Assembly (NCBI GenBank): GCA_034190875.2
Contig: CM067344.1
Span: 69,978,309-70,042,308, forward strand
DNA length: 64,000 nt
Reading direction: 5' to 3'
Source of the DNA: Urechis unicinctus
Taxonomy: Eukaryota; Annelida; Polychaeta; Xenopneusta; Urechidae
The translations under genes and the position numbers were made by a program. Positions 1-59,672 of this stretch are shown piece after piece (position 1 is the stretch's first letter; every line of letters begins with the position of its first letter). Below the pieces are notes generated by a model. That model was given only the letters and a program-made list of their open reading frames with translations, made no database searches and had not been told where the DNA came from.

Positions 1-1275
1 GAATGCTCATGGAGGTCATCTAGTAATTCCCTCTATCTGGGGTCTATGAAGGTTCTCCAGTACTCCTAGCTATCTGGTGTCCATGGAGGATCTCCAGCTC
101 CAGTTGGTGTCCATGGAGGTTCTCCAGTATTCCTCTCCAGTTGGTGTCCACTGAGGTTATCCAGTACTCTTTTCTAGCTGGCGGCCATGGAGGTTCTCCA
201 GTACTCCTCTCTATCTGGTGTCCATGGAGGTTCTCCAGTATTGCTCTCTATCTGATGTCCATGGAGATTCTCCAGTACTCCTCTCTATCTGGTGTCAATC
301 GAGGTTCTCCAAAACTCCTCTCTATCTGATGTCCATAAAGGTTCTTCTGTGCTCCTCTCTATCTGATGTCCTAGAGGTTCCCCAGTACTCCTAGATATCT
401 GGTGTCCATGGAGGTTATCCAGTACCCCTAGCTATCTGGTGTCAATGGAGTTTTCCTCTCTAGCTGGTGCCAATGGAGTTTCTCCAGTACTTCTAGCTAT
501 CTGATGTCCATTGAGGTTATCCAGTACTCCTCTTTATCTGATGTCCATCAACGTTCTCCAGTAGTCCTCTCTAATTGGTGTCCATAAAGGTTCTCCATTG
601 CTCCTCGCTGATGTATCTGATGTCCATCTCTAGTTGGTGTTGAGGTTCAGTAGCTCCTCTCTAGTTGGTGTCCATGGAGGTTCTCCATCAACGTTCTGCT
701 CCTCGCTATCCTTGGATGTACTCCAGTGGTCCTCTTCAGTATTCCTCTCTAGTTGGTGTCCATGGAGGTTCTCATGTATTCCTTTCTAGTTGGTGATCAT
801 GGAGGTTATACAGTACTCCTAGTTATCTGGTGTCCATAGGGGTTCTCCAGCATTCCTCCCTAGCTGGTGCCAATGGAGGTTCTCCAGTACCCTTAGCTAT
901 CTGATGTCAATGGAGGTTCTCTAGTACTCCTCTCTATCTGATTTATATCGAGGTTATCCAGTACTCATCTCTATCTGGTGTACATGAAGGTTATCCAGTA
1001 TTCCTCTCTATCTGGTGTCCACGGAGATTCTCCAGTATCCCTCTCTATCTGGTGTCCATGGAGATTCTCCAGTTCTTCTCTCTATCTGATGTCCATGGAG
1101 GTTCTCCAGTACTCCTCTCTATCTGGTGTCCATGGAAGTTCTCCAGTATTCCTCTCTATCTGGTGTCCATGGAAGTCTCCAGTACTTCCCTCTAGCTGGC
1201 GGCCATGGAGGTTCTCCAGTACTCCTCTCTCTCTGGTGTCCATGGAGGTTCTCCAGTACTCATCTCTATCTCACA
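1..1275. repeat. Minisatellite, 37-bp unit, runs off the left edge
   Basis: Repeats carry CCATGGAGGTTCTCCAGTAC followed by TCCTCTCTATCTGGTGT; two CCATGG starts at 185 and 222 set the 37-bp period. Copies vary by substitutions and small indels. Each unit contains a small foldback (GGAG, three bases, CTCC). A decayed tail continues to about 1465. The open frames at 141-329 and 978-1418 are repeat translations. Confidence 0.95.
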
Positions 1276-1465
1276 AGCGACTGAGACTAGTGTCACAGGA
1301 GGCCATCAAGCATTTCTATCTCTCTCCGGTGCCCATGAACGTTCTGTCCATTTGTCTAGCTGCCAAGGATGCTCTTTCACGCGCCTATCTGTCTGGTGTC
1401 TGTCCAACATCCATGTAGGTTTTTTAGCGTGCCTTTCTGGCCAATGGAGGTTCTCTCACGTGCCT

Positions 1466-2426
1466 ATCTGTGATATATTTACTAGGTTGTTACTTTCAAT
1501 CTTCTGCTCTTCAAGCTGGCCAATAGAAACCGTCCTTATATCATACCTAGCTGGCCAATCACGTGCGAATCTACCCTTGGGCTCTAATATCGTGGTCTGT
1601 GTGGCTACGGTACTTGATGTTTTGTGCACACTGCTTGTACGGCCTTTCACAAGGAACGGTCGTTTATGGAGAAATCTCCTCAAATCATTATTAAACATCG
1701 TTGCAGCCTGAACACAATGCCATCGACCCACAGTTACTGCCGTCAAAGTCACACAGCTCCCCACTCACCGCCGCATACGGGACAAAAACCTCGCCTTGTT
1801 TTGCTGGTTTACCAAAATGGGTGGTTATGAATTCCGTATACCCTCACACTAAAATAGAACACTCATAACATCGTCACATGGAACAAAAGTTATTCTGTTC
1901 TGCCATATCATGATGAACTCGGTGAACTCTTTCACGTCAACCTGAGGGCCAACACGGCAACCGTATGACGAACAATATACGGTCATTATTTCAGTTGCAG
2001 ACTACGACAAACAATAAAACTCCTTAAGATGCAATGGATTTTGAACAACTGGGGGAGTAGGAAACTTTGTTAGGTAATACATCTGACAGGAACCAAGGAG
2101 ACGCCCTACTGGTACAAGGGCGGATGGCAGGCGCAGCTGTGTGTCGAAAACAGAATCGGCCTCCTCTCATCTCCAGCTAGGGTCGTGGCTAACCTGGACA
2201 GTGACATCAAAGCTTATAGAAAAAACACAACATAACTAGGCAGTTACCACACTGAATCGGACAGACCTCCATTGCACGATTGCCCGAGCTACTGAGAGCT
2301 CTGAAGCAGCTGCAGCACAATAAGCCATTGACGATACTAGCATACCCATATCCCAGGGACGCATTGAACACGCACACGCGCTCACGTTTCAAACAAACAT
2401 GCACGACAAATATGTCAATGGTTGTC
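1466..2426. other. No feature seen
   Basis: Non-repetitive sequence. Short open frames on both strands overlap each other and have no splice or domain support. Confidence 0.5.
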
Positions 2427-3020
2427 ATGGCGCGATAAACCTAGTCGACATGGCGCGATAAACCCAGACGTCATAAAGAGATGAAGTCGGTCGTCATGGC
2501 GCGATGAAACCCAATCGTAATTGCGCGATGAAATCTTGTCGTAACGGCGCGTTAAACCCATCTGCATCGGCGCGATAAACCCATCTGTAACGGCGATAAA
2601 CCCATCTGCATCGGCACGATAAACCCATCTGCATCGGCGCGATAAACCCATCTGTAACGGCGCGATAAACCCATCTGCAACGGCGCGATAAACCCATCTG
2701 TAACGGCGCGATAAACCCATCTGTAACGGCGCGATAAACCCATCTGTAACGGCGCGATAAACCCATCTGCATCGGCACGATAAACCCATCGGCGCGATAA
2801 ACCCATCTGCATCGGCGCAATAAACCCATCTGTAACGGCGCGATAAACCCATCTGCATCGGCACGATAAACCCATCTGTAACGGCGCGATAAACCCATCT
2901 GCATCGGCACGATAAACCCATCTGTAACGGCGCGATAAACCCATCTGCATCGGCACGATAAACCCATCTGTAACGGCGCGATAAAAACCCATCTGCATCG
3001 GCGCAATAAAACCGTAGTCT
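2427..3020. repeat. Minisatellite, 24-bp unit
   Basis: Units of the form GCGCGATAAACCCATCTG plus TAACGG or CATCGG repeat about 23 times. The 24-bp period is divisible by three and the unit lacks stops on the minus strand, so three overlapping minus-strand open frames run through it with an MGLSRRYRWVYRAV-type peptide. These are not genes. Confidence 0.95.
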
Positions 3021-3640
3021 GCATGGCGAGATAAACCCAGTACGGTCATGGTGAGATAAACGCGTCATGGCGAGAAACCCAATAGTCATGGCGAGATAAA
3101 CCCAGTAGACATGACAAGATAAACCCAGTAGTCATGGTGAGATAAACCCAGTAGTCATGGCGAGATAAACCCAGTAGTCATGCGTGAGATAAACCGAGTC
3201 GTCATGGCGAGATAAACCGAGTAGTCATCATGAGAGATAAACCAGTAGTCATGGACGAGATAAACCCAGTAGTCATGGTGAGATACCCAGTAGTCATGAC
3301 GAGAGATAAACCGAGTAGTCATGACGAGATAAATAAGTCCATGACGAGATAAACCGAGTAGTCATGGTGAGATAAACCCAGTAGTCATGGTGAGATAAAC
3401 CGAGTAGTCATGACGAGATAAACCGAGTAGTCATGACGAGATAAACCCAGTAGTCATGGTGAGATAAACCGAGTAGTCATGGCGAGATAAACCCAGTAGT
3501 CATGGCGAGATAAACCCAGTAGTCATGGGCGAGAAACCCAGTAGTCATGGCGAGATAAACCGAGTAGTCATGGCGAGATAAACCGAGTAGTCATGACGAG
3601 ATAAACCGAGTCGTCATGGCGAGATAAACCCAGTCGCCAT
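3020..3640. repeat. Minisatellite, 23-bp unit, sister of the preceding array
   Basis: Units of the form TCATGGCGAGATAAACCCAG plus TAG follow directly. They share GATAAACCCA with the 24-bp array but have a one-base shorter period and a different left half. Frame is lost, so no long ORF. A degenerate tail with GATAAAGCCAGCTGTTAGGG-type units continues to about 3865. Confidence 0.93.
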
Positions 3641-3865
3641 TGCGAAACATAAAGCCAGTTGCCCTTATAAAACTCGCCATCAGAGCATGATAAAGGTAGC
3701 TGTCATAGGCTGAAAAGCCAGCTTCCAGACCCCGATAAAGCCAGCTGTTAGGGCCCTAAAAAGCTAGCTGTTAAGGCCCGATAGTACCAATGTTAGGGCC
3801 TGATAGAGCGCCAGTTGCTAGGGCCTGATAGAGCTTATAAAGCTGTTAGAGCTTGATAGAGCCAG

Positions 3866-5129
3866 CTGCCTCCTTTGTCACTATGTTTCACATCACGCCA
3901 CTTTATGATAGAATGTGTATCAGCGCGTTTGTACAGTTCAAGGCTTCACTTTCAGCAATGTGTATCAGTGCGTTTGTACAGTTCACTTGATGTTGATCAC
4001 TGATATTCAATGGTTGATCGACACGGCTCGTTATCGGCCAGCACGCACACTGACCATGCTATCGGGATATAGGTTGGAGGGATGGGGGCAACTGCAGTGA
4101 ATCTGCCAAGAGATCGCTAGTTCCTCTACCCATTAATCAAGCTACGCCTTATAAATCATGAATCGTATTTTCTGGCGAGCGCACCTGTCTAGTCGTTGTA
4201 ACACCATGTTAGCCTCCACTCTGCTTCAGCATAGTTTTCTTTCACAAGCAGCTATCTAGCTGGGGTAGTGAGGCCGTGTCAAAGCGAACGTCCCCTCACC
4301 ACCACGAGTACCGCGCGTCATACACGCCGACCTCCCCCAGGACGCTCGCTCAATCTGAAATGACATCTCTCTGAACCCTACCCCCTCGCGTACCTCGCTT
4401 AGTAAAAACGCCTTCCAGTTTCTAAGCAACGCATCCACGTTAACAACAACCTTATCATCCTATTACTGTGACCTTATAAGGTAACACTATACACCTGTGT
4501 CAACCCGACCCGAGCAGGGAGTTTTGGTGGCTGGGGCATAACAACGGATCCCCCAGACCGGAGCCAGTCTTCAGGCAATGTGGACATCCATATACTCTCC
4601 CCTGGCTCCGGGTTTGCCCACGTACAGTATCCCTGAGAACTGTTGCGTGGAAAACCGAGAAGTTTAATTGTCTTTGTTCGTTTGAACTGGTTGTTAACAG
4701 ATGTTTCGTGAGACTCTAACGAGTGAGTGGTCAATCGTTATTTGTCTATACAATCTGCAGTGAGTTTCGCAACCATCTGCTCTCCAGGGCAATTGATCAT
4801 TTATCAATACTCGATCGATACATAATGGCACATTAAGCCTCATTATAACATGAATTACGGACTTCGGGCATTGTGACAAAATGATCAGGTTTAAATTCTT
4901 TTATTGGCGTAAGGTCCTCAGTCAAGGAAATTATTTCCTATTAAAGATCATTAGTACAAACAACAGACTACTTGCACCTATTTATTATGTTGCGAGATTC
5001 GGGAGAAACCAGATAATGGGATACGTCTGCGTTACAGAGAGCTTAACATAGCCGGGTAGTACAACGCGACGGACTGCGACGAATGTACCAGAAAGAAAGA
5101 AACACAGATGCAGCGTTTCACACTTGGTG
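3866..5129. other. Intergenic; one short direct duplication
   Basis: A 29-bp sequence at 3912-3940 recurs at 3957-3985 with one mismatch. Otherwise nothing was recognised. Confidence 0.6.
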
Positions 5130-6001
5130 CTGTAGGGAATGTTGTGTCTCAGATGCTGTTGACGGGGAGATAGATGTACTTGGTGTGGGACTGATCAAAG
5201 TGGTTGTTGTGTCTCAGATCCTGTTGACGGGGAGATAGGTGTTCTTGGTGTGGGACTGATCAAGGTGGATGTTGTGTGTCAGATCCTGTTGACAGGGAGA
5301 TAGGTGTACTTGGTGTGGGACTGATCAAGGTGGATGTTGTGTGTCAGATCCTGTTGACGGGGAGATAGGTGTACTTGGTGTGGGACTGATCAAGGTGGTT
5401 GTTGTGTCTCAGATCCTGTTGACGGGGAGATAGGTGTATTTGGTGTGGGACTGATCAAGGTGGTTGTTGTGTGTCAGGTTCTGTTGACGGGGAGATAGGT
5501 GTTCTTGGTGTGGGGCTGATCAAGGTGGTTGTTGTGTGTCAGGTTCTGTTGACGGGGAGATAGGTGTATTTGGTGTGGGACTGATCAAGGTGGTTGCTGT
5601 GTCTCAGATCCTGTTGACAGGGAGATAGGTGTTCTTGGTGTGGGGCTGATCAAGGTGGTTGTTGTGTCTCAGGTCCTGTTGACGGGGAGATAGGTGTTCT
5701 TGGTGTGGGACTGATCAAGGTGGTTGTTGTGTCTCAGATCCTGTTGACAGGGAGATAGGTGTACTTGGTGTGGGACTGATCAAGGTGGTTGTTGTGTCTC
5801 AGGTCCTGTTGACGGGGAGATAGGTGTTCTTGGTGTGGGACTGATCAAGGTGGTTGTTGTGTCTCAGATCCTGTTGACAGGGAGATAGGTGTTCTTGGTG
5901 TGGGACTGATCAAGGTGGTTGTTGTGTCTCAGGTCCTGTTGACAGGGAGATAGGTGTACTTGGTGTGGGACTGATCAAGGTGGTTGTTATGTCTCAGATC
6001 C
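5130..6001. repeat. Minisatellite, 65-bp unit, about 13 copies
   Basis: CTGTTGACGGGGAGATAGGT recurs every 65 bp (for example at 5221, 5286 and 5351), followed by TTGGTGTGGGACTGATCAAG. This is the longest unit in the window. Copies differ at a few fixed positions (GAC/GG or GACAGG; GTACTT or GTTCTT), showing internal shuffling of variants. Confidence 0.95.
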
Positions 6002-7529
6002 TACACCCATCGTGCTTATGCCCTTTCCATGGTACCTGAAAGGCTAATATTGGACCAATAATCGATAACCACGAAATAAGACCTTTCTTTTGAAACTGTC
6101 TTTGATTTGTTTAAGATATTGCCTACAGTATGAGGAAAATATAGCACCCTAATGAACCGAAAGGCAAAAACACATCCGCAAAACGAGCCATACGGATTCA
6201 GGTGACGTCGATTGGCGCGGTGTTCCGTAACAACCTGCTTTTTAATCATTCGCTCTTGTTGATAAGTAGTTCCTAATAGAACCAGAGCCCCGGAAAGATT
6301 GAAAAATAAATCGTATTAGGTAGCGTCTAACGGGCGAATGTAAACAGAAGCGGGACACATGTGCGCGCGTAGATGAGCTGTATTCATGACTGAATAGAGC
6401 CTGTTGTCTCAAACAGCATGCACAGGCGGAGAGAAAAATGAGAGTTGGGAGAAAAATTACGCACGTTACGTAATGAAGCCGGCACAGAATGCACGTGACA
6501 AGCCCGATTTGCCAGATCGCGGAAAGGCAATAGTTGTACAGAAGTCTCTCTGGTGGTTCAGTGTAGAAATAAAACAGGTAACCTACAAGACCTACAGCTG
6601 GGTCAACAAAAAAAACCGGGCTCAAATCCAGGCCTGAACTATTGCCCGGAAACGCGCTCCTTCCATACCTCCATTCCCTTGTTTACTGCGCATGCGCGGC
6701 AAAGCTGACCGTATTGCGCATGTGTAATTACTCTTTGATATGTTTGAGTTTTCGTTTTTTGTGACTTCTGGTCCGTTTCTTCCTTCTGGTGCTTACGTCT
6801 ATTTAGAGAACACGTAAAAGGCAACATGCAAGGGACATTAAGTAATTGTGCGTAGCATCATCTGACTACAAAGCACAGCATCGTTCAGTGAAAAGGCCAG
6901 TGAAAAATACAGTCCACTAAAGGTATTTGCAGAGTAAACCCGAGTGATGCCACGCCATCCCTTCTCCTAATCACAAATATGCTAAACTAAGTCCAAGCCA
7001 CACGTCATCATGCATTGGCGAGATGTGCGCGTTTCAATCAGTTTAGCGCTAACTGAAGAGGCTGCTGTCATCGCCTAATCCCGACAATACATAACGACCC
7101 TAACTGTCATCGCATACACTGCCAACGTATCCATAAAATATCCTCTTTTTCTCCGTTGCGTAGAAAAACGCCCAATGTCCCGCGGCATATGTGGACATTC
7201 CGTGCATTAAACACGCATGGTCGTTATTTTTTTTTATCAAACTATGTTTGTAGAAGGCTATAAATAGCGGGCTGCTGCCTGTGCGGGTACCTAATAGAAG
7301 CTGAGCCCCAACGGTATCAGATCGGGGACACCAAACAGCGAATGTCGTAGACCATCTATCTAAGCCACTTATCATTCGCTGCTTGTGGGAGTAATCTGGT
7401 TTTCTGCTTCCACAGTTGATCCTTATAATACATGGTCTACGGATTAAGACATGCCCTAAATGTGCAATGCAAACGCTGATTTGAGTACAATACAAGACGT
7501 CTTAAACTCAATATAAAAACGCCATGATT
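6002..7529. other. No feature seen
   Basis: Non-repetitive sequence with overlapping short open frames on opposite strands (for example around 6242-6637) and no supporting splice signals or domains. Confidence 0.5.
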
Positions 7530-9300
7530 TCGACGAAATGACTACTACGACATGATTACTATAAGACGATCACAACATGATAATGACCAGGTGATAACGG
7601 AATAATAACATCAACATGATAACGGAATGACAACGACAAGATGATAACGGAATGACAACATCAACATGATAACGGAATGACAACGACAGGATGATAACAG
7701 AATGACAACGACAAGATGATAACGGAATAACAACATCAACATGATAATGGAATGACAACGACAAGATGATAACGGAATGACAACATCAACATGATAACGG
7801 AATGACAATGACAGGATGATAACGGAATGACAACAAAAAGATGATACAGAATGACATCGACAAGATGATAACGGAACGACAACATCAACATGATAACGGA
7901 ATGACAACGACAAGATGATAACGGAATGACAACGACAAGATGATAACGGAATGACAACGTCAACATGATAACGGAATGACAACGACAAGATGATAACGGA
8001 ATGACAACATCAACATGATAACGGAATGACAACGACAGGATGACAACGGAATGACAACGACAAAATGATAACGGAATGACAACATCAACATGATAATGCA
8101 ATGACAACGACAGGATGATAACGGAATGACAACATCAACATGATAACGGAATGACAACGACAAGATGATAACGGAATGACAACATCAACATGATAACGGA
8201 AAGACAATGACAGGAAGATAACTGAATGACAACGACAAGATGATAACGGAATGACAACATCAGCATGATAACGGAATGAAAACGACAGGATGATAACGGA
8301 ATGACAACGACAAGATGATAACGGAAAGACAATGACAGGATGATAACGGAATGACAATGACAAGATGATAACGGAATGACAACGACAAAATGATAACGGA
8401 ATGATAACGACAGGATGATAACGGAATGATAATGACAAGATGATAACGGAATGACAACATCAACATGATAACGGAATGACAACGACAGGATGACAACGGA
8501 ATGACAACGACAAGATGATAACGGAATGACAACATCAACATGATAATGCAATGACAACGACAGGATGATAACGGAATGACAACATCAACATGATAACGGA
8601 ATGACAACGACAAGATGATAACGGAATGACAACATCAACATGATAACGGAAAGACAATGACAGGAAGATAACTGAATGACAACGACAAGATGATAACGGA
8701 ATGACAACATCAGCATGATAACGGAATGAAAACGACAGGATGATAACGGAATGACAACGACAAGATGATAACGGAATGACAATGATAGGATGATAACGGA
8801 ATGACAATGACAAGATGATAACGGAATGACAACGACAAAATGTTAACGGAATGATAACAACATGATAATGGAATGACAACGACAGGATGATTACGGAATG
8901 ACAACATCAACATGATAACGGAATGAAAACGACAAGATGATAACGGAATGACAACATCAACATGATAACGGAATGACAACGACAGGATGATAACTGAATG
9001 ACAACGACAATATGATAACGGAATGACAATGACAAGATGATAACGGAAAGACAATGACAGGATGATAACGGAATGACAATGACAAGATGATAACGGAATG
9101 ACAACGACAAAATGATAACGGAATGATAACGACAGGATGATAACGGAATGATAATGACAAGATGATAACGGAATGACAACGACAAGATGATAATGGAATG
9201 ACAACGACAGGATGATAACGGAATGACAACGACAGGATGATAACGGAATGACAACGACAAGATGATAACGGAATGACAACGACAACATGATAACCAAATG
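7530..9300. repeat. Minisatellite, 25-bp unit, about 70 copies, with higher-order repeats
   Basis: GATAACGGAATGACAACGAC or GATAACGGAATGACAACATC, each plus five bases, alternate at 25 bp. This is the largest array in the window. A block of about 370 bp at 8041-8410 recurs almost base for base at 8491-8860 (18 units later). Minus-strand open frames (VVIPLSSCRCHSVI-type peptide) arise because three units make 75 bp, a multiple of three. Confidence 0.96.
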
Positions 9301-9496
9301 ATAAAGAGAAGTTGATCACGGCATTTTAACGACAGTTAAAAACAACATGAAATTGACAACATGAAAACAATATGATAACGACGACATGATAGAAACCGAC
9401 GCGATGACGATTAGACCAGTGATAGTATGGCTTGAAAATGAAAACGAGGCTTTAAAAACAAAGAAGGTTACCGAATTGTGATTAGGGCAATATATT

Positions 9497-10325
9497 ATCA
9501 TGACGACGATGATATACGATAACGACGAAGCCGATATAACAACGACGATGGGATCAATCCAATATGCTAACGACGATGGGATCAATCCGATATGCCAACG
9601 ACGATGGGATCAAGCCAATGTGGTAACGACATTGGGATCAATCCGATATGCTAACGACGATGGAATCAATCCGATATGCTAACGACGATAGGATCAAGCC
9701 AATGTGCTAACGACATTGGGACAAGACAATATGATGGCGACGATGGTGTGAAGCCGGTATGAGAGCGACGATGGGATCAATCCAATATGCTAACGACGTC
9801 GGGATCAAGCAGATATGGGAATGTGGATGGGATAAAACCGATATGGTAATAACGATGGGATCAAGCTGATATGCTAACGAAGAAATAAGGCAGATCTGGT
9901 GACGAACATGAGATCAAGCCAATATGGTAACGACGATGGGATCAATCTTGTTATGGTTACTAAGTTGGGATAAAGCCGATATCATAACAACGTTGGATTC
10001 AAGTCGTTATGCTGACGAAGATGAGATCAAGCTGATTTGGTAACAACCACGGGAACAAGCCGGTATGATGACGACGATGGGATCAAGCCGATATGGTACT
10101 GACGGTGAAATGAAAACGATATGGTAACGACAAATGAATGAACCATATATGGTAACGATGATGGGATCAAGCCGATCTGGTAACGATGATGGGATCAAGC
10201 CGATCTGGTGACGATGATGGGATCAAGCCGATCTGGAAACGATGATGGGATCAAGCCGATCTGGTGACGATGATGGGATCAAGCCGATCTGGTGACGATG
10301 ATGGGATCAAGCCGATATGATGACG
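9497..10325. repeat. Minisatellite, 28-bp unit, degenerate
   Basis: TAACGACGATGGGATCAATC plus CGATATGC at 28 bp, diverged in the middle and more uniform at 10140-10325, where the unit contains GATGGGATCAAGCCGATCTG. It lies beside the 25-bp array, separated by a 200-bp zone of GATAACGAC-like degenerate sequence, so the two may be related. Confidence 0.9.
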
Positions 10326-13712: not shown

Positions 13713-14040
13713 ACACCATTGTAAATCATAGAATCTTAAAGAAATTGTCACTATTGAAAAACATCGCATATGACAAAATAGACGCAGTTGAATATCTATA
13801 AATCTGATTGAAATAGACTCCACGGAAAATTATTTAATCTGATGAAAATAAACGCAATTGAAAACCATAGTATCTTATGGAAATAGACATGGCTAAAAAT
13901 CTTACAATCTGATAGAAACAGTCGCCATTGAACATCATAATGATAAAAATAGACACTATTGAAATTCATGGAATCTGATAGAGCACCATGGAATCTAACA
14001 GACACGGACTGCATTTGCCATGATTGAATCTGATAGATTT
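13713..14040. repeat. Decayed tail of a tandem array
   Basis: Irregular repeats of AATCTGATAGAAATAGAC and similar at roughly 35-40 bp spacing, too diverged for a clean consensus. Confidence 0.6.
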
Positions 14041-27316: not shown

Positions 27317-27348
<32 letters not shown>

Positions 27349-31058: not shown

Positions 31059-34040
<2,982 letters not shown>

Positions 34041-45995: not shown

Positions 45996-46070
45996 ATGGG
46001 CAGTAATGAACCACTATTGCGAAGTGACGTTATCAACAGTGATGGCGATTTCTCACCGGGCGACCTTAAG
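45996..46070 (+). CDS. Candidate first coding exon, 25 codons, unassigned gene
   Basis: The ATG has A at -3 and G at +4, a good initiation context. It is followed by 25 codons (MGSNEPLLRSDVINSDGDFS then PGDLK) ending at AAG|GTGAGT, a near-ideal donor in phase 0. The acidic EPLL-type start resembles the cytosolic leader of vesicle or lysosome transporters, which is inference only. The next exon was not found in the 18 kb to the right edge, so either the intron is very long or this is a chance match. Confidence 0.4.
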
Positions 46071-46978: not shown

Positions 46979-48012
46979 TAGGGCATCATCTCCTCCTAGT
47001 GGCGTGCAGGGTATCATCTCCTCCTAGTGGCGTGCAGGGTATCATCTCCTCTTAGTGGCGTGCAGGGTATCATCTCCTCTTAGTGGCGTGCAGGGTATCA
47101 TCTCCTCTTAGTGGCGTGCAGGGTATCATCTCCTCTTAGTGGCGTGCAGGGCATTATCTCCTTTTAGCCGCTGCAGTGTATCATCTCTCCTATTGACGTT
47201 TAGGGCATTATCTTCTCCTAGTGGCGTTTAGGGCTTTATCTCCTCCTAGCGGCGTTTAGGGTATCATCTCCTCTTAGTGGCGAGCAGGGCATTATTGCCT
47301 TCTAGAGGCTGCAGTGTATCATCTCTCCTATTGGCGTTTAGGGCATTATCTCCTTCTAGTGGCGTGCAGGGTATCATATCCTTTTAGTGGCGTGCAGGGC
47401 ATTATCGCCTGCTAGTGGCGTTTAGGCACCATCTCCTCGTAGTGGCGTTTAGGGCACCATCTCCTCGTAGTGGCGTTTAGGCACCATCTCCTCGTAGTGG
47501 CGTTTAGGGCACCATCTCCTCGTAGTGGCGTTTAGGGCACCATCTCCTCGTAGTGGCGTTTAGGGCACCATCTCCTCGTAGTGGCGTTTAGGCACCATCT
47601 CCTCGTAGTGGCGTTTAGGGCACCATCTCCTCGTAGTGGCGTTTAGGGCATCATCTCCTCTTAGTGGCGTTTAGGGCACCATCTCCTCGTAGTGGCGTTT
47701 AGGCACCATCTCCTCGTAGTGGCGTTTAGGGCACCATCTCCTCGTAGTGGCGTTTAGGGCATCATCTCCTCTTAGTGGCGTTTAGGGCAATATCTCCTCT
47801 TAGTGGCGTTTAGGGCAATATCTCCTCTTAGTGGCGTTTAGGGCATCATCTCCTCCTAGTGGCGTTTAGGGCAATATCTCCTCTTAGTGGCGTTTAGGGC
47901 AATATCTCCTCTTAGTGGCGTTTAGGGCAATATCTCCTCTTAGTGGCGTTTAGGGCATCATCTCCTCCTAGTGGCGTTTAAGGTATCATCTCCTCTTAGT
48001 GGCGTGCTGGAT
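46979..48012. repeat. Minisatellite, 28-bp unit, about 37 copies
   Basis: ATCTCCTCTTAGTGGCGTTT plus AGGGCATC. Three blocks: GCGTGCAGGG units at the left edge, a uniform CACCATCTCCTCGTAGTGGC block at about 47405-47750, and CAATATCTCCTCTTAGTGGC units to the right. The 26-bp variants that lack GG recur at intervals inside the central block. Confidence 0.95.
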
Positions 48013-49689
48013 AGTTGCAGTGAATATGTCATTACACAGGACATCAATGCCTAATAGCGCTGTGGAGAGACAGCAACTTCAATCCACGCAGTATTCTTGA
48101 CAACTTCTAGATATTGATTCCTCGACGGTACACTTACATCCAATTGTTCGTTCTGCGTTAAGATATGCGGGTAGTGTGGAAGACCAACACTGCAACCAGA
48201 GATATTCGCGTCTTATAAACGCCCCTACTCCATAGCGGCTTGTTTATAAAGACATTGTTTGCGATCCTTTCTGTGCACCCTACTGAACCTACAGTGGTGG
48301 CGCGCTTAGTCCGCCCGGACTATTCACAGCTGCCAAAGTCAACTTTCATTCGACATCAAACTTCAGCGTCACATTGTACAATAACACAATTGATTCATAT
48401 TAACTAGCTCTTAAGTACATCGCCGATATAATAACTATTTTACAAGAAGTACACGTAGTTTGAAATCGCAATCTTTTTCGGTGCTTTCTGATAGCGAGCG
48501 ACGGCGATATTTTTTATGATCACCATCTGTGCTGCATTAGAATTCTATATTTTGACTGAATAAAATTCGCTTTATTTATTCAAATAACTTGAATTAAGGA
48601 CAGTAGGACAGCCACATTTAAACCGCTTGCAGGTTGTTCGGCATCTATTTATCTCCGGTATACTCAGCCGCTGTTTAATATAGACTCCATTACTATATGA
48701 ACTTGCCTAAGCCATTAATATATTACCGCATAGTACTAATCAAGCGACACTTTTGCCATGGCGATCCGACTTAATTCAAAATATCAAAATCTGCCACATC
48801 TAACTTGGACCTATGATGCAGTCAACAGGATCGAGGCCGGTAATTGGTCGACATGTTGCATCACCTTACATGCTCGTTTGTTAAATCCCTTTCTCATCAT
48901 CTGTGCCATTCACATGGCATCATAGAACTCTAGGCAGTAAATGGGTATCCACTGTAGACTTAGGCTCCCAGTCTTTAAAGTCTAAAAGCGGGGGTCATTT
49001 TAAGACTCGAGTAATGTGTCTCATGGCTTAACGTCAATAAACATGTCCAGCATGCTTTAATGTGGCAGAAGAAGACAAGGCATGTATGGTTGAGATTTGC
49101 ATGGCGGCCATGTTGTCATCTCTAGGACAGGCTGATGCTGGCAGCGTGCATCATTAACCAGTTGCTGCATTGTATCCAGGCAGACATTCGTACAAATCAC
49201 ATCATCCAGGCGGTGTGGAGGCAATCATTAAGGCCATATCCAAGCAGTTGTCATGGTTCAGACAGTTGTTCGGTTGGAATGGAGTATTGTACGGAGACAA
49301 TCGGAAATGAGCGTGGTATAGACGTGTGGTCGCTACTGGTGAGCCGAGCGTCTATAGGTCGTCTCATTTCCGTCTCACTACAACTGTTTCATACCGGGAA
49401 TATCATCCAGAACAACGATGTTCATTTAACACCGCACAAGCCAGATCCGTGTCAGTCACAGCAAGTAGACCACCGCTCACGGACGTCATAGAAGCGAATA
49501 CCCCAGTCGTGCAGGTCACAGATGGAACATGGTCAAATAGGACTGGAATTGACAGACCCATCTCTTGCGCTGATGCCCATTACAGTGAATGACACGTGTC
49601 TAGACAGACCCCATGCAGGTATCGCTCCCCAGCTTGTAGCTCGTATGGCTGACCCACATTGAACCCGATGATAACTCCATCTTTATCCG
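48013..49689. other. No feature seen
   Basis: Unique sequence. Overlapping plus-strand frames at 49135-49592 show no recognisable domain. Confidence 0.45.
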
Positions 49690-49885
49690 GTTATAACCGG
49701 TTATGACTTAACCATTTGTCTACAATGACCCAGTCATTACTCTTTTATTTTGACTCAATCATTATTCCATAATGACTCTGTTATGATTCAATCATTACTC
49801 AATTATAACTCAATCATTATTCTACTATGACCCGATCATTACTCTGTTATGACTCAATCATTACACTATTATAACTCAGTCATTA
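49690..49885. repeat. Degenerate minisatellite, about 22-24-bp unit
   Basis: TATGACTCAATCATTACTCT with variants recurs about eight times. A palindrome CCGGTTATAACCGG lies just before it. Confidence 0.85.
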
Positions 49886-50079
49886 CTCTGCAGCCTTTTT
49901 TGGGGCTGGCGATACAGGTCGCATGTTTTAAAAAAGATTCTAATTTTCTTTGATATTTCGGCCACAATGTTGCTCAGAACCTAGACTATTTTTTTAGGTA
50001 ATTGAAAATGTGAGAATCTAGAATCCCTAATATCTCCGTAGATAATTGTTTGATCTACACAAACTTAATACAATACTGT

Positions 50080-50184
50080 AGTATATATATATAGATATAT
50101 ATAGATATATATATATAGATATATATAGATATAGATAGAGATAGATAGATATATATAGATATATATATATAGATATATATATAT

Positions 50185-50253
<69 letters not shown>

Positions 50254-50348
50254 TATATATCTATAGATATATATATATATATATATATATATCTATATAT
50301 ATATATATATATATATATCTATATATCTATATATATATATATATATAT
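50080..50348. repeat. TA and GATA microsatellite with opposite-strand halves
   Basis: The left part carries TATATAGA units, the centre is pure TA, and the right part carries TATATCTA units, so the tract is roughly a mirror of itself across strands. Confidence 0.95.
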
Positions 50349-52149
50349 GCTAAGATGACAAATGATTTTCCCATGCGCCTAAGGTCGAAAGTTCGTGGTA
50401 TCAGTCCAGCTTTTAGGAACATTATAAAAATAAATTTTGTGGTGGTGTTGGTTTTTTGTGTGGAGAGGGTTTAGTTGTGTAATACGATAGCCTGTTTGGC
50501 CATTGTCTTAGAGCTTCGCATATTTTATATAGCATTCTACATCATCAATTTTCCACGTGGTGCCACGTATTTAAATTGACACGATGAATTAGCGGATTAC
50601 GTCTCATCGAAATCTTGACTCTATAAAACGTGTTCCATTCTTGCTGATTAGTCTTTGCCGTGTCCTAATCCCAGCATGTGGTGAAACACTCCGCCCCTAT
50701 CAACACGCCTACTCCAGATGGCTGCGCAAAAGAATAACTGTTTCAAGTTCTGCAATGAGTACAATCGTACAGTGTTAAACTGGCATCAACTCGCAGGTGA
50801 ATGGCAGATTGCAGTGATCGCTATCTATTTCCTAACATCGTATGTAGCCAATCGCTTACTCGAGAAGAAAATCACTCATAATCACAATATTTAACGAGGT
50901 GTTTTCTATTTTTGTAGTTTTGGTCCCCTGCCGTTGCGTGGGCTGTATCAACTACTCTTGCTCAGTGTACACTGCTCAGTGCAATCGTTCTGGACGTAGG
51001 TTAATACCACGAGCGGCTGGTAAACGGCGCTCGCTCCTCTGTTGTATTATTTTTTAGCAAGTTAATTTCAATGACTAGGCAGCTATGATATCGACTGTTC
51101 TGATTCCTCTCCAAATGACGAGTACCATGGCCTATCTCGAGATACTACAGATGTCAAATAATGGATGCAAGTCTGATTCTTTATCGCCCCTTCAACACAG
51201 GGACGGGGAGTTCCATCGTTGCGCGTGAGAGCGTGTCACCATACCTGACAGCAGATTATGTCATGCATCTTCTGTCGAGTCGGTCTGATCACTTTTCGCA
51301 TCAGAATGCCTTTAAGCATCCAGATGTTTTGTGACAAAAGTAGCAAGATATAATGGCCGTTGTTAGTTAAGTCTGAAAAACATGGCATTTTGCTTTAGGT
51401 CGGAAACTTTGCCCTTTCGAAAGCAGGATGGTTAAAGACAATTGCGACAGTTCTAAATTCGTGCATAGATTTTCACGATTTTTTGCAGAGAGTATGCTCG
51501 TATATAAAGCTAACGAAATGTAAAATAAAAAGTATAGGTCACTGGTTTAAATTTCTGAGTATGGCGAAATTAAGATCCACATGTTAAGCCAATGGGAATT
51601 ATGATAATTTGATAATATTTTGGTTCTACAGAAAAGTTCATACCGCGAATTGCATTATATTTAACATACAGACAGCACAATATCTGCTTTACAAAAAATC
51701 AAGAAAAAAATGATGTCTCGCCGCACCCTACGGCAAGCCGTTTATGAATTTATTGTTATTTTTTTCTCTAGAATGGTGAACATCCTCCATAAAAAAAATT
51801 TGACCCATCAGTTTTAAACTAAACTTAGTAATATGGTGCAGTGGTATATGTACTATGAGCAGAAATTTAAAAAATGATAGGTCCACGTAGTGTATGGGAA
51901 GCCACAAAGGATTTTCGGTTGTATTCCCTGAGTGCGGTGTATTACCATATTCGAACCTCCATAAAAAAAATTTGACCGATCAGTTTTAAACTAAACTTGG
52001 TAATATGGTTAGTTATAATGACCTATTATATGTCATTGGGAGAATGTTTTGATGAACTAATTGAAGAGTTATGGTCGCCATGGACGACGCTGTGTGGAAG
52101 ACTACGGGCATCTCTAAGTCAAACAACTACATATCCCGTGCAACACCAA
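50349..52149. other. Intergenic; a 54-bp spaced duplication
   Basis: 51784-51837 recurs at 51956-52009 with few mismatches (shared CCTCCATAAAAAAAATTTGA). A 58-codon frame starting at 50719 has a donor-like CAG|GTGAAT inside but no other support. Confidence 0.6.
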
Positions 52150-53192
52150 AGAACACCCACTCGCAAGGCAAGAAGTGTGGGTGTAGTTCTTAAATGTGTT
52201 TGTCCGCAGCTCTGAGGTGTGGGTGTAGTCCTGAGATGGGCCGAGTGTGGGTGTAGTCCTGAGATGAGCCGAGTGTGGGTGTAGTCCTGAGATAGGCTGA
52301 GTGTGGCTGTAGTCCTGAGATGAGCCGAGTGTGGGTGTAGTCGGGAGATGAGCCTTGTGTGGGTGTAGTCCTGAGATGAGTCGAGTGTGGGTGTAGTCGG
52401 GAGATGAGCCTAGTGTGGGTGTAGTCCTGAGATGAGTCGAGTGTGGGTGTAGTCGGGAGATGAGCCTTGTGTGGGTGTAGTCCTGAGATGAGCCGAGTGT
52501 GGGGTGTAGTCGGGAGATGAGCCTTGTGTGGGTGTAGTCCTGAGATGAGTCCTTGTGTGTGGGTGTAGATGAGTCTAGTGTGGGTGATGAGCCTTGTGTG
52601 GGTGTAGTCCTAAGATGAGTCGAGTGTGGGTGTAGTCGGGAGATGAGCCTTGTGTGGGTGTAGTCCTGAGATGAGTCGAGTGTGGGTGTAGTCGGGAGAT
52701 GAGCCTTGTGTGGGGTGTAGTCGAGTGTGGGTGTAGTGAGATGAGTCTTGTGTGGGTGTGTAGTCGAGTGTGGGTGGGAGATGAGCCTGTAGTCGGGAGG
52801 TGTGGGTGTAGTCCTGAGATGAGTCGAGTGTGGGTGTAGTCGGGAGATGAGCCTTGTGTGGGTGTAGTCCTAAGATGAGTCGAGTGTGGGTGTAGTCGGG
52901 AGATGAGCCTTGTGTGGGTGTAGTCCTGAGATGAGTCGAGTGTGGGTGTAGTCGGGAGATGAGCCTTGTGTGGGTGTAGTCGGGAGATGAGCCTAGTGTG
53001 GGTGTAGTCGGGAGATGAGCCTAGTGTGGGTGTAGTCGGGAGATGAGCCTAGTGTGGGTGATCGGGAGCCTGAGCCTTGTGTGGGTGTAGTCGGGAGATG
53101 AGCCTAGTGTGGGTGTAGTCGGGAGATGAGCCTAGTGTGGGTGTAGTCGGGAGATGAGCCTAGTGTGGGTGTAGTCGGGAGATGAGCCTAAT
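52150..53192. repeat. Minisatellite, 28-bp unit, irregular
   Basis: GTGTGGGTGTAGTCGGGAGA plus TGAGCCTT or TGAGCCTA, alternating with AGTCCTGAGATGAGTCGA units. Many partial units near 52550-52800 show repeated deletions. The right end (52950-53192) is the most uniform. Confidence 0.95.
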
Positions 53193-55112
53193 CATCCAGG
53201 CCAACAACGAAAATAGCAACGTGTTTTTCATCTAAGTATATATCAGCCACTCTCTGCAGTGTCATTCCTAACCAGCGCTCATAGTTAAATATCAAAAAGC
53301 TTTGATATTAAAGAAAAGATGTCCGCCATGGTTTTTTGTAAGACACAAGCTACACGATAAGTTCAATGGTAAGCATTTACACGATAAATAATTCATTTGT
53401 ATGCATCGTACCGCTTCGACTAATTGGATTGATGTCTTTTTCTCGGCAACAGTGTGTCCCCACGTTAATTGCTGATCATCCAGTCAGACGCAGTCCACTT
53501 GCATGCACAACATGTACCCACTTATCCAGATTACGAATTTACCATTAGCGAAACATGTTATGACGTCACAGATGACTTATGACAATGTCGCACACACAGC
53601 ACGCTCAAATTAATGCAATACGTTGGTTCCACGATCGTAGTTTGCTGTTGTAACATTTGTTTCTTACAAAATTGACTGCTTCCTGTATCGAATCTGTGCA
53701 ATTTATGTAGGTCTCGGCAATCGTACAATGGGATGGGGAAAAACTTCCGCTCTTTTCCCAATGAAAATTCTCCACCATTCCATCGTTTTGGCTGTCTATG
53801 TGCTCATCTTAATATAACAACAACTGCCCTCTATATGTTTACAAAATGAAGTATTTGTACAAATCATCACATCCAATCTAGTTTTTCGTGCTGTGTCAGG
53901 CTTCTCTCATCCGACCCATTCATGCTAACATGTAGTGCCTTATAATGCTGTATCTGACCGTGAAGCGCCGTCTCTTTTCTATCTGCTACACTTCCGACCA
54001 AATACGATTTCATCACTGTAGCTGTTTGCCTTGCCCACTGATACGTAGACATCTCACGTTTCTTGCTGCCCCGGATTCCAGCTAATGTTTGGATTAATTA
54101 GGTTGTTCCAATGAACTACAGTGGCTCAACAACATTTCTTATTAACGCTACATGATCTGATAAGCGTGCTGGTTCTGCTAACAGTAGAATAACTAAACTG
54201 TCGTATTGCTAAGCACTAGGCTACTTGTTAACGGAAACCAATTTGGTGCACGTTTATCTCTCGCCGGCTATACCTCTGTCTTCATCATATATTTGTCGAC
54301 GATTTGCAGCATAAACTGTAAACACAGGGGACATATGCTAAACACTCGGATTCTAAAACTTCTTTACTTGATCCGGGATGATATTTGATTCAACCTGGAG
54401 AGCTGTACAGACTCTCTATTATAGCCCACCTGCGCAACTGTACATGGCGACTGTACTGACTTCTGTTGTTGTCAGCTGCTGCTGATGATGAAATTATGCG
54501 AGCCACTTAGCAGTAATGTACCACGTACGCCCAACACTGCGGTTCTAAACAATAGCCTCATTGACAGCGACGTGTGGCCAAGGCAGCGCTGATACGGAGA
54601 AAAACATATATATATATAATGCACCACGTTTCATGAAGCCAATAACAGAGGAATACGAGCATGAGCATCGTCGATATTGAGCATGCCATGATGAATAGTG
54701 AAGCACATGTGACATTTATTTAGACACAACACATGACGCTCTGTATTATTGCTCCACCAGTCCACTGCGTCATGCTCGTTGCCATATGTTGATTCTGCGC
54801 GCGTGTGGTTCCGTGCTGAGTTTCACCATTGTATACCCGGCCAGCTCTCGCAAACCAAGCGGCCACACGAGAGTCAACCAATGCCTTGTATAGGATTCAT
54901 TGTCAATGCAGCGAACGTACAGAGGAAACGAAGTGTAATCCCCACTAGACGAGCATTTAGCTTAGGTAGATGGGTGAGGTCAGACAGCTGATGGGTATCT
55001 CCCGGTCACAGCATTATTGCGAGAGGGTTTCTGGCCATCAAAGCAGGTAGTTTAAGAGGGTGCAAGCTGGTATGTGTGGCAGAGTACGATTTATCAGCAC
55101 CCTAAACCCTGA
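53193..55112. other. No feature seen
   Basis: Unique sequence. A minus-strand frame at 53867-54052 reads plausibly (MSTYQWARQTATVMKSYL) but has no family or splice support. Confidence 0.4.
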
Positions 55113-56242
55113 ATTCGGCCTGTTTTAACACGGTTTCTATTCTCACCCGCTCGTCCTGTTTTAACACGGCTCTTATTCTCACCTGCTCGTCCTGTTTTAA
55201 CACGGTTTCTATTCTCACCCGCTCGTCCTGTTTTAACACGGTTTCTATTCTCACCTGCTCGTCCTGTTTTAACACGGCTCCTATTCTCACCTGCTCGTCC
55301 TGTTTTAACACAGCTCCTATTCTCACCTGCTCGTCCTGTTTTAACACAGCTCCTATTCTCACCTGCTCGTCCTGTTTTAACACAGCTCTATTCTCACCTG
55401 CTCGTCCTGTTTTAACACAGCTCCTATTCTCACCCTGCTCGTCCTGTTTTAACACAGCTCCTATTCTCACCTGCTCGTCCTGTTTTAACACAGCTCCTAT
55501 TCTATGCTCTCCACACAGCTCGTCACCTGCTCGTCCTGTTTTAACACAGCTCCTATTCTCACCTGCTCGTCCTGTTTTAACACAGCTCCTATTCTCACCC
55601 ACTCGTCCTGTTTTAACACAGCTCCTATTCTCACCTGCTCGTCCTGTTTTAACACAGCTCCTATTCTCACCGCTCGTCCTGTTTTAACACAGCTCCTATT
55701 CTCCTATCGTCCTGTTTTCACCCATTCTCGTCCTGTTTTAACACGGCTCTTATTCTCACCTGCTCGTCCTGTTTTAACACGGCTCTTATTCTCACCTGCT
55801 CGTCCTGTTTTAACACAGCTCCTATTCTCACCTGCTCGTCCTGTTTTAACACGGTTTCTATTCTCACCTGCTCGTCCTGTTTTAACACAGCTCCTATTCT
55901 CACCCACTCGGCCTGTTTTAACACAGCTCCTATTCTCACCCACTCGGCCTCTCTTTTAACACGGTTTCTATTCTCACCCACTCGGCCTGTTTTAACACGG
56001 TTTCTATTCTCACCCACTCGGCCTGTTTTAACACGGTTTCTATTCTCACCCACTCGGCCTGTTTTAACACGGTTTCTATTCTCACCTGCTCGTCCTGTTT
56101 TAACACGGTTTCTATTCTCACCCACTCGGCCTGTTTTAACACGGCTCTTATTCTCACCCGCTCGTCCTGTTTTAACACGGCTCTTATTCTCACTCGCCCA
56201 TCCTGTATTAACACGGCTCTTATTCTCACTTGCTCGTCCTGT
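55113..56242. repeat. Minisatellite, 36-bp unit, about 31 copies
   Basis: TCTCACCTGCTCGTCCTGTT plus TTAACACAGCTCCTAT. Variants at ACACGGCTCTT, ACACGGTTTCT and CACCCACTCGGCC are grouped in runs. A deletion-bearing segment lies at 55680-55730. Open frames on both strands (GENRSCVKTGRA, PVLTQLLFSPAR) are artefacts of the 36-bp period. Confidence 0.96.
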
Positions 56243-56982
56243 TTGCATTCTCCACCTTTACCTGCTGAGGACACTGGGGCAGCACGGACATGACCTTTAT
56301 GATTTTGTCATTAGAATGAGTTGACAACGGCTGTGGTGCAATCGAAACCAATACATCAGACAGATGATAATAGTGTTTGTCTTTTCATTCTACATGACTC
56401 TTGGATGCCGCGAATTCAGTTCTTATTGCCAGCCTAGCTAACTATGTTCTCGACGCCGTCCTCAGCTCTCTGTCTATCGCCGAGGTGATATCGTCAGGTG
56501 AGCTGATTCAGCATTTCAGCTGATCCAACCGTCCATCCCTAGGCTCCAATATGCCTCAGATCAAGTGGAATACTAATGAAAGCACTCAAATAGACCGATG
56601 TATCACAAATTTGATCTAAATAGAACGCTTTTGGGATGTTTGCTTTGGTGCAGTTTTCTCAAAGCTATCTGGCCAAATCAATTGTCTGCAAGTTCTCCGT
56701 CATCGCAAATATGTCTTGAATAACTCCTTCTGAATAAATCACTTGTATTATTATGTTCAGGGTTCACATGTTGTTGTGTATCTTCATAATAGACATAGTT
56801 TGATGGGTTTTCTGTACGGTGTGGCGCTTTACCCCCCATTCGAAGAAAGCTACCATTGGCGGGAATAATGAATGAGTGTCAATCGCGGTCGAAACATGTA
56901 ATTTTTGTACTACTTAAAAATCCAAGTGGGGAATCATTTCTGATGACACGTTTTTTAAATCTGCAATTATAATTGCTGCAGA
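56243..56982. other. No confirmed feature
   Basis: Unique sequence. An exon-like stretch at 56420-56497 is discussed among the rejected items. Confidence 0.4.
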
Positions 56983-57330
56983 AGTAATCACGAACTAGCC
57001 GTCCAGTTAACAATTGATACAGAAGTTATAATGAACCAGTCGTAACAGGAGTAATCACGAACAAGGCGTCCTGCTTATAATTGTAAAAGGATTAATCACG
57101 AACCAGGCGTCCTGTTTATAATCGTCACAGGAGTAATCACGGACCAGGTGCGCTGTTTATAATCGTCTCAGGAGTAATCACGGACCAGGTGCGCTGTTTA
57201 TAATCGTCACTGAAGTAATCACGGACCAGGCGTCCTGTTTATAATCGTTACTGAAGTAATCACGGACCAGGTGCGCTGTTTATAATCGTCACAGGAAGTA
57301 ATCACGGACCAGGTGCGCTGTTTGGAAATG
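56983..57330. repeat. Minisatellite, 41-bp unit, about eight copies
   Basis: GTAATCACGGACCAGGTGCG plus CTGTTTATAATCGTCACAGGA; starts at 57133 and 57174 set the period. Left copies are more diverged (ACCAGGCGTCC). Confidence 0.92.
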
Positions 57331-57968
57331 CTGTAAGAGTAATCACTGAACTGAATTAACCATGTCGTGGTAAAGACAGTATTCACATCAGCAGTATCTA
57401 CTGGGATGTGTCGTCGTCGGGAAGTTACGCGTCGCACCTTAGCTATGTCGAACGACGTCCCCTGAGTAAATGCGACTGTTCCGCGACGCAGGGGCCTTAG
57501 GTGTTTATTCAGTGACAAACGCCTTAGGTGGAGGAGCGGGTTTATGCCTTGGAGATTACATGAAGTGAAACGTTAACAAGCATTCCATAGCGCCCCACGA
57601 GGCTGGAGCCCTTCATTAATAAATCACAGGATATCTTAAAGTAGCACACTTAATAGCGATTGCTCAGTGAATCCGTTGGTTGCTGTGTTAGTTTTGTGCA
57701 GGAAGCCTAACGTTAAGGTATAACTGCTGAGAGACCAGAATGGTTGCCACAGGGGCTGCGATGAGCATAACGATAAAATGTTATATTGAGACGGGTTCTG
57801 TGGCGCTGAGAGGAGAATGATTATGATTACCCATGCTGATACTATTTTTACAATGATCTGAAGTGATGAGTTGAGCATAGCAATGATCACAAGTACTGAG
57901 ATGTAAAAAATACTGAGCTATAATGTTGAGAGGAATGTAATAACGGTTTGTAGTGCTGAAATGGATAG
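57331..57968. other. No feature seen
   Basis: Mostly unique sequence. From about 57840 loose TAATGATCAC-like motifs precede the next array and may be its decayed ancestor. Confidence 0.45.
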
Positions 57969-58271
57969 AATAATGGTCACCAGTGCCGAATGAGCTTGAT
58001 AATGGTCACCAGTGCCGAATGAGCTTGATAATGGTCACCAGTGCCGAATGAGCTTGATAATGGTCACCAGTGCCGAATGAGCTTGATAATGGTCACCAGT
58101 GCCGAATGAGCTTGATAATGGTCACCAGTGCCGAATGAGCTTGATAATGGTCACCAGTGCCGAATGAGCTTGATAATGGTCACCAGTGCCGAATGAGCTT
58201 GATAATGGTCACCAGTGCCGAATGAGCTTGATAATGGTCACCAGTGCCGAATGAGCTTGATAATGGTCACT
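57969..58271. repeat. Near-perfect minisatellite, 29-bp unit, about ten copies
   Basis: GATAATGGTCACCAGTGCCG plus AATGAGCTT repeats with no mismatch that I could find between full copies, unlike every other array here. Confidence 0.97.
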
Positions 58272-58438
58272 TGCGATTCGCTCAGCAAAATAAATTATAC
58301 GACGGTGTGGTATGTGATGTTGTCTTGGAAACTCACGATATAGTGTCATATGAAGTCACGTGGTGCCGTCATGTGAAGTCACGTGATGTTGCCGTGTCCC
58401 GCGTTTAAACGAGAAACGAAAATATCAGCCTGCTTCTG

Positions 58439-58709
58439 TTAGGCTGGAAGCTCTCGCTTAGATTTTTGGGGAATTACGTATTCCAGAGGCATGGTTCCGT
58501 TCTCAAAGGAGGCATAGCGAGCCGTTCCCTTTTCGACTGAGTTTCCATTGGAATGGAAGGACTGTACTTGTCTTAACTCTGAGTCAGTGTTGTTATTGAG
58601 TGACTTGGAAGCGTCAGATGAGCTGGGCGGCGCTATGACATCAACAGAATAAAGAGGCAGATCGAGCGGTGATGCAGGTCTCGTCTCGTCGTGAATAGTT
58701 TGACCAACA
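58439..58709 (-). CDS. Candidate terminal coding exon, C-terminal tail of an unassigned protein
   Basis: After an acceptor of T-rich sequence and TAG, one base and then 90 codons (stop included) stay open to TAA at 58439-58441. The peptide is polar and Ser/Asn rich: DLPLYSVDVIAPPSSSDASK, later VQSFHSNGNSVEKG, and the end ARYASFENGTMPLEYVIPQ then KSKRELPA. Codon use is even and the region is not repetitive, unlike the arrays on both sides (57969-58271 and 58780-59672). It reads like the cytosolic C-terminal tail of a larger protein whose earlier exons would lie at higher coordinates. I do not recognise the family. Confidence 0.5.
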
Positions 58710-58779
58710 CTACGAAATAAATAAACCTTAATATAGTTGCTATCAGGACATGGCTCGTTGAATTGCCATGTTATTATGA

Positions 58780-59672
58780 TGGCATGGTTTGATATACTGA
58801 TGTGCTATCACGGCTTGGCTTGTTATACTGATGTGCTATCACGGTCAGGCTTCGTATACTGACGTGCTATCACGGCCAGACTTGTTATACTGACGTGCTT
58901 TCACGGCTTGGCTTGTAATACTGATGTGCTATCACGGCTTGTCTTGTTATACTGATGTGCTATTACGGCCAGACTTGTTATACTGACGTGTTATCACGGC
59001 CAGACTTGTTATACTGACGTGCTATCACGGCTAGACTTGTTATACTTATGTACTTTCACGGCTTGGCTTGTAATGCTGATGTGCTATCACGGCTTGGCTT
59101 GTAATACTGATATGCTATTACGGCTTGGCTTGTAATACTGATGTGCTATCATGGTCTGGCTGTTATACTGACGTGCTATCACGGCTTGGCTTGTTATACT
59201 GATGTGCTATCACGGCCTGGCTGTTATACTGAAGTGCTATCACGGCCAGGCTTGTTATACTGACGTGCTATCACAGCCAGGCTTGAAATACTGATGTGCT
59301 ATCACGGCCTGGCTGTTATACTGATGTGCTATCACGGCTTTGCTTGTAATACTGATGTGCTATCATGGCCTGGCTGTTATACTGACGTGCTGTCATGGTC
59401 TGGCTGTTATACTGACGTGCTATCACGACCTGGCTGTTATACTGACGTGCTGTCATGGTCTGGCTGCTATAATGAAGTGGTATCACGGCCAAACTTATTA
59501 TACTGACGTGCTATCGAGGCCAGGCATTTTACAAAGACGTCCTATCAGGGCATTCTACGACGGCCTGAATTGTTAATATGCCATGCTATCACGGCCTGGT
59601 TTGTTATTATCACATGCTATCACGGCCTGGTTTGTTATTTTCACATGCTATCACGGCATGGATTGCTATAAA
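58780..59672. repeat. Minisatellite, 31-bp unit, about 29 copies
   Basis: TATACTGATGTGCTATCACG plus GCCTGGCTTGT with frequent 29-bp variants that lack TT. The plus-strand frames at 59294-59576 are repeat translations. Confidence 0.94.

Follow-up and report, generated by a model that had tools for sequence, protein, structure and literature searches.

A 64,000-nucleotide stretch of the genome of Urechis unicinctus (GenBank assembly GCA_034190875.2, contig CM067344.1, here C3; the whole stretch, C3:69978309-70042308, is called the window below) is crowded with tandem repeat arrays. These probably form a dense cluster of ordinary minisatellites, of the variable number of tandem repeats (VNTR) type, each of which was born locally. 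Repeated local birth of new arrays had been suggested in the initial annotation of this DNA, and that suggestion is supported by repeat units that are unrelated to one another, by their lack of dispersal through the genome, and by a second copy of part of the window, on contig C6, in which one of the arrays is missing. This kind of repeat is well known, and the window is a dense example of it with one useful presence/absence site; a host function is not needed to explain the arrays.

The arrays and their units

Tandem Repeats Finder (TRF) with default settings, restricted to periods of at least 10 bp, covered 27.9% of the window, compared with 0-0.07% of three dinucleotide shuffles; with a permissive minimum score of 50, the corresponding values were 31.2% and 0.6-0.9%. 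The 21 arrays analyzed here have units of 19-65 bp, occupy 16,973 bp (26.5% of the window, compared with under 0.1% of dinucleotide shuffles at the same settings) by TRF, extend from base 8 to about base 59,670, and range in guanine-plus-cytosine (GC) content from 0.29 to 0.56. The initial count of about twenty minisatellite arrays and the initial estimate that arrays fill about a quarter of the window were accurate. TRF also recovered 19 of the 20 unit lengths listed at that time; the remaining one, 24 bp, was not found. Missing from that list were a 35-bp array (13775-13979) and a 32-bp array (40167-40377), both called by TRF, and a degenerate 23-bp array (3689-3868) that appears only with permissive TRF. 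The arrays consist of head-to-tail units within the span of about 6-100 bp, and have the lengths of hundreds of base pairs to a few kilobases, that define minisatellites.

8-1271: array of a 37-bp unit, 34 copies, also with a 111-bp higher-order period (TRF)
2424-3644: array of a 23-bp unit, 53 copies (TRF)
3582-6438: segment duplicated at C6:7036242-7038241, minus strand (genome search)
3689-3868: degenerate 23-bp array, its unit different from that of 2424-3644; also in the C6 paralogue, with 6.4 copies there (permissive TRF)
5140-6002: array of a 65-bp unit, 13.3 copies; a single 16-bp stretch at this site in the C6 paralogue
7577-9321: array of a 25-bp unit, 70 copies (TRF)
9528-10328: array of a 28-bp unit (first), 28.7 copies (TRF)
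12888-13713: array of a 36-bp unit (first), 22.9 copies (TRF)
13775-13979: degenerate 35-bp array, 6 copies (TRF)
16413-17051: array of a 21-bp unit, 30 copies, with 42/63-bp higher order and an adjoining CATC microsatellite (TRF)
17466-19196: array of a 19-bp unit, 93 copies, with 36-bp higher order (TRF)
21627-22677: array of a 37-bp unit (second unit), 28.4 copies (TRF)
39387-40168: array of a 33-bp unit, 23.6 copies (TRF)
40167-40377: array of a 32-bp unit, 6.6 copies, kin to the adjoining 33-bp unit (TRF and unit comparison)
43837-44127: degenerate 20-bp array, reported by TRF in pieces
44825-45422: array of a 40-bp (2 x 20) unit (TRF)
46976-48005: array of a 28-bp unit (second unit), 37 copies (TRF)
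49751-49889: degenerate 22-bp array (TRF)
52217-53190: array of a 28-bp unit (third unit), 35 copies, with 56/84-bp higher order; the genome search returned only itself
55115-56244: array of a 36-bp unit (second unit), 31 copies (TRF)
57040-57323: array of a 41-bp unit, 6.9 copies (TRF)
57970-58270: array of a 29-bp unit, 10 identical full copies (TRF)
58781-59669: array of a 31-bp unit, about 28 copies, split by TRF into 58781-59515 and 59560-59669

The consensus units were doubled and compared on both strands against shuffled units (20 replicates). Only one pair scored above the shuffles, namely the touching arrays 39387-40168 and 40167-40377, at 45 against null maxima of 17-32; the next pair scored 20. 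The consensus units thus differ, as had been stated, and inside the window they are unrelated except in this touching pair. In a wider comparison of 48 arrays from the window and from sampled loci (with L001, L034, and L037 excluded as overlapping), all pairs above the null maxima (23-30, five replicates) were neighbors at the same locus: pairs within L043, L044, and L003, the window pair 39387/40167, and array 8-1271 with an array of locus L002. The last of these partners, which has a 38-bp unit and opens L002 some 6 kb upstream of the window, is weakly related to 8-1271, with a score of 31 that none of 3,000 shuffles reached. The L002 array itself (1-4050 of that locus, C3:69968309-69972358) holds 107 copies of its 38-bp unit.

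The copies within an array differ widely in how similar they are. Among the 18 arrays that were decomposed into copies, mean pairwise identity ranges from 0.72 in the 19-bp array to 1.00 in the 29-bp array, where 10 of 10 full copies are identical and which is likely the youngest of the arrays. Variants recur in 12 of the 18, in which the distinct copies make up no more than three quarters of all copies (for instance, 17 of 28 or 32 of 70), and the remaining six have no recurring variants or too few copies, such as 8-1271 with 33 distinct copies among 34. Minisatellites that grow as copies are duplicated inside the array, and that later decay, usually show this pattern. No consistent core-versus-edge gradient was seen in the 18 decomposed arrays, and a consistent strand bias was rejected, since the GC skew, though strong in several of the arrays, takes either sign. 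A series running from ten identical copies to heavily decayed ones within 64 kb is material for following the start, growth, and decay of minisatellites.

A site with and without the 65-bp array

The genome search matched window positions 3582-6438 to C6:7036242-7038241 on the minus strand. When the flanks of the 65-bp array are joined, they are 94.4% identical to C6 over 1,968 aligned positions, with 57 transitions and 54 transversions (Kimura two-parameter distance 0.059). Opposite window 5140-6002, C6 has 16 bp, which are closely similar to the window sequence at both edges of the array. The simplest reading of this alignment would be that the 65-bp array was born on C3 after the duplication, and local birth of arrays is favored because the C6 copy is without it. 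Mean pairwise difference among the 13 full copies of the 65-bp unit is 0.058, and the array therefore need not predate the duplication, with its distance of 0.059. At this site the birth or loss of an array may be seen almost directly, and the pair of copies on C6 and C3 is a datable presence/absence site.

Loss has to be weighed here as well. The 65-bp array could predate the duplication and have been removed on C6 through recombination between its end copies, in which case C6 would not represent the state before the array. A remnant of one edge would be expected after a loss of this kind, which matches the state of C6, and the low divergence among the copies could also come from homogenization. 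An older array is nevertheless not required, as copy divergence is no greater than the divergence since duplication, and we consider the loss on C6 possible but rather unlikely. The C6 copy starts inside the 23-bp array of 2424-3644, of which it retains 2.7 copies compared with 53 in the window; the degenerate 23-bp array of 3689-3868 is present in both copies. One end of C6:7036242-7038241 thus lies inside a 23-bp minisatellite; its other end lies at a TA/TG microsatellite.

Dispersal of the units and the origin of the arrays

The search of the whole genome sequence (1,190,315,542 bases in 926 contigs) took in 19 of the 21 arrays, all but 21627-22677 and 49751-49889. The search skips very common words, and the candidates scored were 39 of 80 for the nine arrays in 1-20000, 13 of 14 for the five in 39340-49700, the single candidate (the array itself) for the one in 52100-53400, and 14 of 15 for the four in 53200-64000. 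Within the scored candidates, ten of the 19 arrays had no array match elsewhere (those starting at 8, 5140, 13775, 39387, 40167, 43837, 44825, 46976, 52217, and 57040), and nine had matches of 65-79% (2424, 7577, 9528, 12888, 16413, 17466, 55115, 57970, and 58781). These weak matches fall at one to five loci per array, with the exception of the 19-bp array at 17466, which matches many loci with E values down to 3e-44. The sole real relative found elsewhere is the C6 paralogue with its 2.7 copies of the 23-bp unit. Recurrence of the same unit at many loci, the mark of a dispersed satellite, was found for none of the 19 searched arrays, and on the evidence of the units one dispersed satellite as the source of the window arrays can be taken as excluded, in agreement with the initial view that this is not one satellite that spread.

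A less restrictive alternative is that one or a few satellite families spread genome-wide and then diverged until their units look unrelated. The nine arrays with matches elsewhere, and above all the many loci matched by the 19-bp array, speak for it. So does a control of 20,000 synthetic arrays whose units were letter-shuffled: in it, a match at E up to 1e-3 was found for only 4 of the 21 arrays of the window, and the best control score, 169 bits for the 19-bp array, falls short of its genome score of 189. When the synthetic arrays numbered 60,000 and their units were dinucleotide-shuffled, 14 of the 21 found a match, and for the 23-bp (2424), 25-bp (7577), first 28-bp (9528), first 36-bp (12888), and 19-bp (17466) arrays the best control score was above that of the genome; the scores of this control may be too high, because the window's own units were part of the pool that was shuffled. 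An earlier control based on ungapped cyclic identity of random units was too lenient a test, assigning every weak match to chance. In most cases chance does suffice to explain the weak match. Further, two of the loci matched by the 19-bp array, when fetched, carry units of 17 and 16 bp, ten arrays are without any array match elsewhere, and the window units are mutually unrelated, so that descent from a few diverged families is improbable.

Local birth of every array has several points to contend with. The matches of four arrays exceed both controls (dinucleotide control versus genome: 73 versus 92 bits for 16413, 53 versus 82 for 55115, 55 versus 65 for 58781, and none versus 84 for 57970), and these four may therefore be distant kin of arrays at one or two loci each. 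An informative paralogue is available for one array only, and there a loss on C6 would look the same as a birth on C3. Moreover, the C6 copy has no counterpart to 49 bp of the 65-bp unit, and the copying of pre-existing DNA alone is thus insufficient to explain that unit.

The arrays could also be internal parts of transposable elements, delivered by transposition. The window does contain two dispersed elements, 37814-39329 and 51432-52009, the second of which has tandem internal units at other loci, and the 65-bp array and part of the 23-bp array sit in a segment present in two copies. Among the arrays assessed, for which 39 of 80 candidates were scored in 1-20000 and from which 21627 and 49751 stand apart, arrays and flanks do not recur together: the flanks of arrays in 39340-49700, 52100-53400, and 53200-64000 gave no high-copy matches, and the one stretch with a second copy, 3582-6438, is without the 65-bp array there. 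Embedding in transposons was rejected for these arrays, and delivery by transposition has little probability as a general explanation. An assembly error that made or inflated the arrays is less probable still. The identical copies of 57970-58270 are what such an error might leave, whereas most arrays hold many distinct variant copies and the window sequence is without any N.

Local birth, the explanation we prefer, could proceed in a few steps. A short stretch lying between short direct repeats would be duplicated through slippage or a switch of template, where a fork has stalled or a break is being repaired, and the 65-bp site agrees in part with such a start. Slippage, unequal exchange, or gene conversion would then multiply the duplicate until it numbers tens of copies, as is suggested by the recurrence of variant copies within arrays. 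Point mutation would subsequently decay the arrays, which may also shrink or vanish, and the arrays of the window display the corresponding range of copy similarity.

Unit size, array length, variant copies, and apparent local origin are those of minisatellites, and each of the known systems compared here resembles the window in part. Human VNTRs resemble the window in forming many arrays with units above 15 bp that are concentrated in certain chromosome regions, and recombination and repair have been proposed as the cause of their enrichment (PMC7608644). The subtelomeric enrichment described there concerns VNTRs of more than 60% GC within 5 Mb of arm ends, whereas the window arrays have 29-56% GC and are 7.5 Mb away from the end of the contig. 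In the model of Haber and Louis (1998), as summarized in PMC6947457, minisatellites originate between short flanking repeats of 5-10 bp. A short direct repeat, present once in the paralogue, likewise bounds the 65-bp array; however, the shared edge measures about 16 bp rather than 5-10 bp, and part of the unit (the 49 bp noted above) is absent from the paralogue. The “mirage” minisatellites of amphioxus, with units of 10-72 bp in Adh3 and about 150-160 bp in globin genes, are also tandem arrays at individual loci, and their instability is reported in the account cited (PMC3087553). Mirages span exon-intron borders; in the part of the flanks that was scanned, no exon was found at any window array. 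Nothobranchius furzeri, in which tandem repeats make up 20.6% of the genome, shares a high tandem-repeat content with the window, but the prominent families described are dispersed and centromeric (PMC2688266), unlike the locus-specific units and regional excess seen here.

Regional setting and the array-free interval

Outside the window, 41 stretches were sampled, at round rather than random positions, and several of them read N in part. Five samples fall within 69.0-70.05 Mb of C3, and four of these contain arrays, which cover 7,935 of 36,999 readable bases (21%). In the other 36, arrays cover 6,008 of 181,552 readable bases (3.3%) and occur in seven samples, one of which has only 394 readable bases. 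A regional, patchy excess of arrays is likely. The case for it is weakened by the sampling at round positions, by the fact that the group of five near samples was bounded after seeing the data, and by the two of the five that adjoin the window. Patchiness is evident in the absence of arrays from the near sample L048 and from samples at 70.1, 70.5, and 71 Mb, and in the 18% coverage at 75 Mb. Contig C3 has 77,575,773 bases, and the window ends 7,533,465 bases (about 7.5 Mb) from the contig end, which is more than 5 Mb; a subtelomeric location is not supported by this position. On eight other contigs, 2-kb samples at about 7.5 Mb from the end had arrays in two of eight cases, and a simple distance-to-end rule is unsupported.

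The density of arrays likely reflects a regional domain, roughly 1 Mb long, where more arrays are born than are lost; the regional excess is seen in few samples, and the cause of such a domain might be, for example, high recombination or fragile replication. It is conceivable, though we regard it as doubtful, that the region is a non-telomeric minisatellite nursery of this size, in which births of unrelated arrays are about six-fold more concentrated than in the sampled background and spare an island that bears genes. If this were true, break- or replication-prone chromatin could be mapped from array density alone. Where a genome has no genetic map, the density of arrays could mark its break-prone or recombining regions from sequence alone.

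22681-39361: array-free interval, GC content 0.386
29855-29962, minus strand: open frame with a cyclin-box exon (Pfam Cyclin_N)
37814-39329: dispersed element resembling a DNA transposon, its terminal inverted repeats 24 bp long

The lack of arrays in this interval is real. In 22,681-39,361, TRF reports only repeats of about two copies, one 6-bp repeat with five copies, and mono- and dinucleotide runs. A gap this large among 21 arrays placed at random has P = 0.0017, or P = 0.011 when 3.8 kb of transposon-like DNA is subtracted. Outside the arrays, the DNA to the two sides of the interval has a GC content of 0.47 and 0.43, compared with 0.386 within it. That arrays avoid 22.7-39.3 kb, as originally proposed, thus holds (P of 0.002-0.011); the description of this DNA as gene-bearing comes down to one cyclin exon, the rest of what was identified there being repeats. 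The exon reaches 29.2 bits against Cyclin_N (cut-off 23) when its open frame is fused in the query with another one near 28.0 kb, and 17.6 bits, under the cut-off, in the whole-frame scan. It may resemble the CNTD1 type. Six-frame Pfam scans covered 24000-39000, 40378-43838, 59671-64000, and 10329-12890, together with nine single queries; the array-flanking parts scanned gave no domain above cut-off, and weak matches to PF10500 and PF06689, below cut-off, were set aside. Neither Rfam, at its gathering thresholds, nor ARAGORN gave any match. In the assembly as a whole, the Egg_lysin, molluscan haemocyanin, and COX1 families gave no match either; for the first two this is of little weight, as they matched none of the control genomes.

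The repeats of the interval include the 1.5-kb element at 37814-39329, with perfect terminal inverted repeats, which occurs in at least 39 places at 93-98% (1,464 first-look candidates), and further repeated sequence at 34.9-37.1 kb. A second dispersed, high-copy element, at 51432-52009, occurs in at least 39 places at 93-97% (1,569 first-look candidates), and at other loci a unit internal to it is tandemly repeated about every 172 bp. Smaller features were also noted. Inside the array-free interval, 35640-35858 and 36922-37135 form a direct duplicate of about 219 bp with 91% identity, and 27178-27410 is a tandem duplication of 117 bp with long poly-C tracts. Long TA microsatellites lie at 31054-31205 and 50082-50348.

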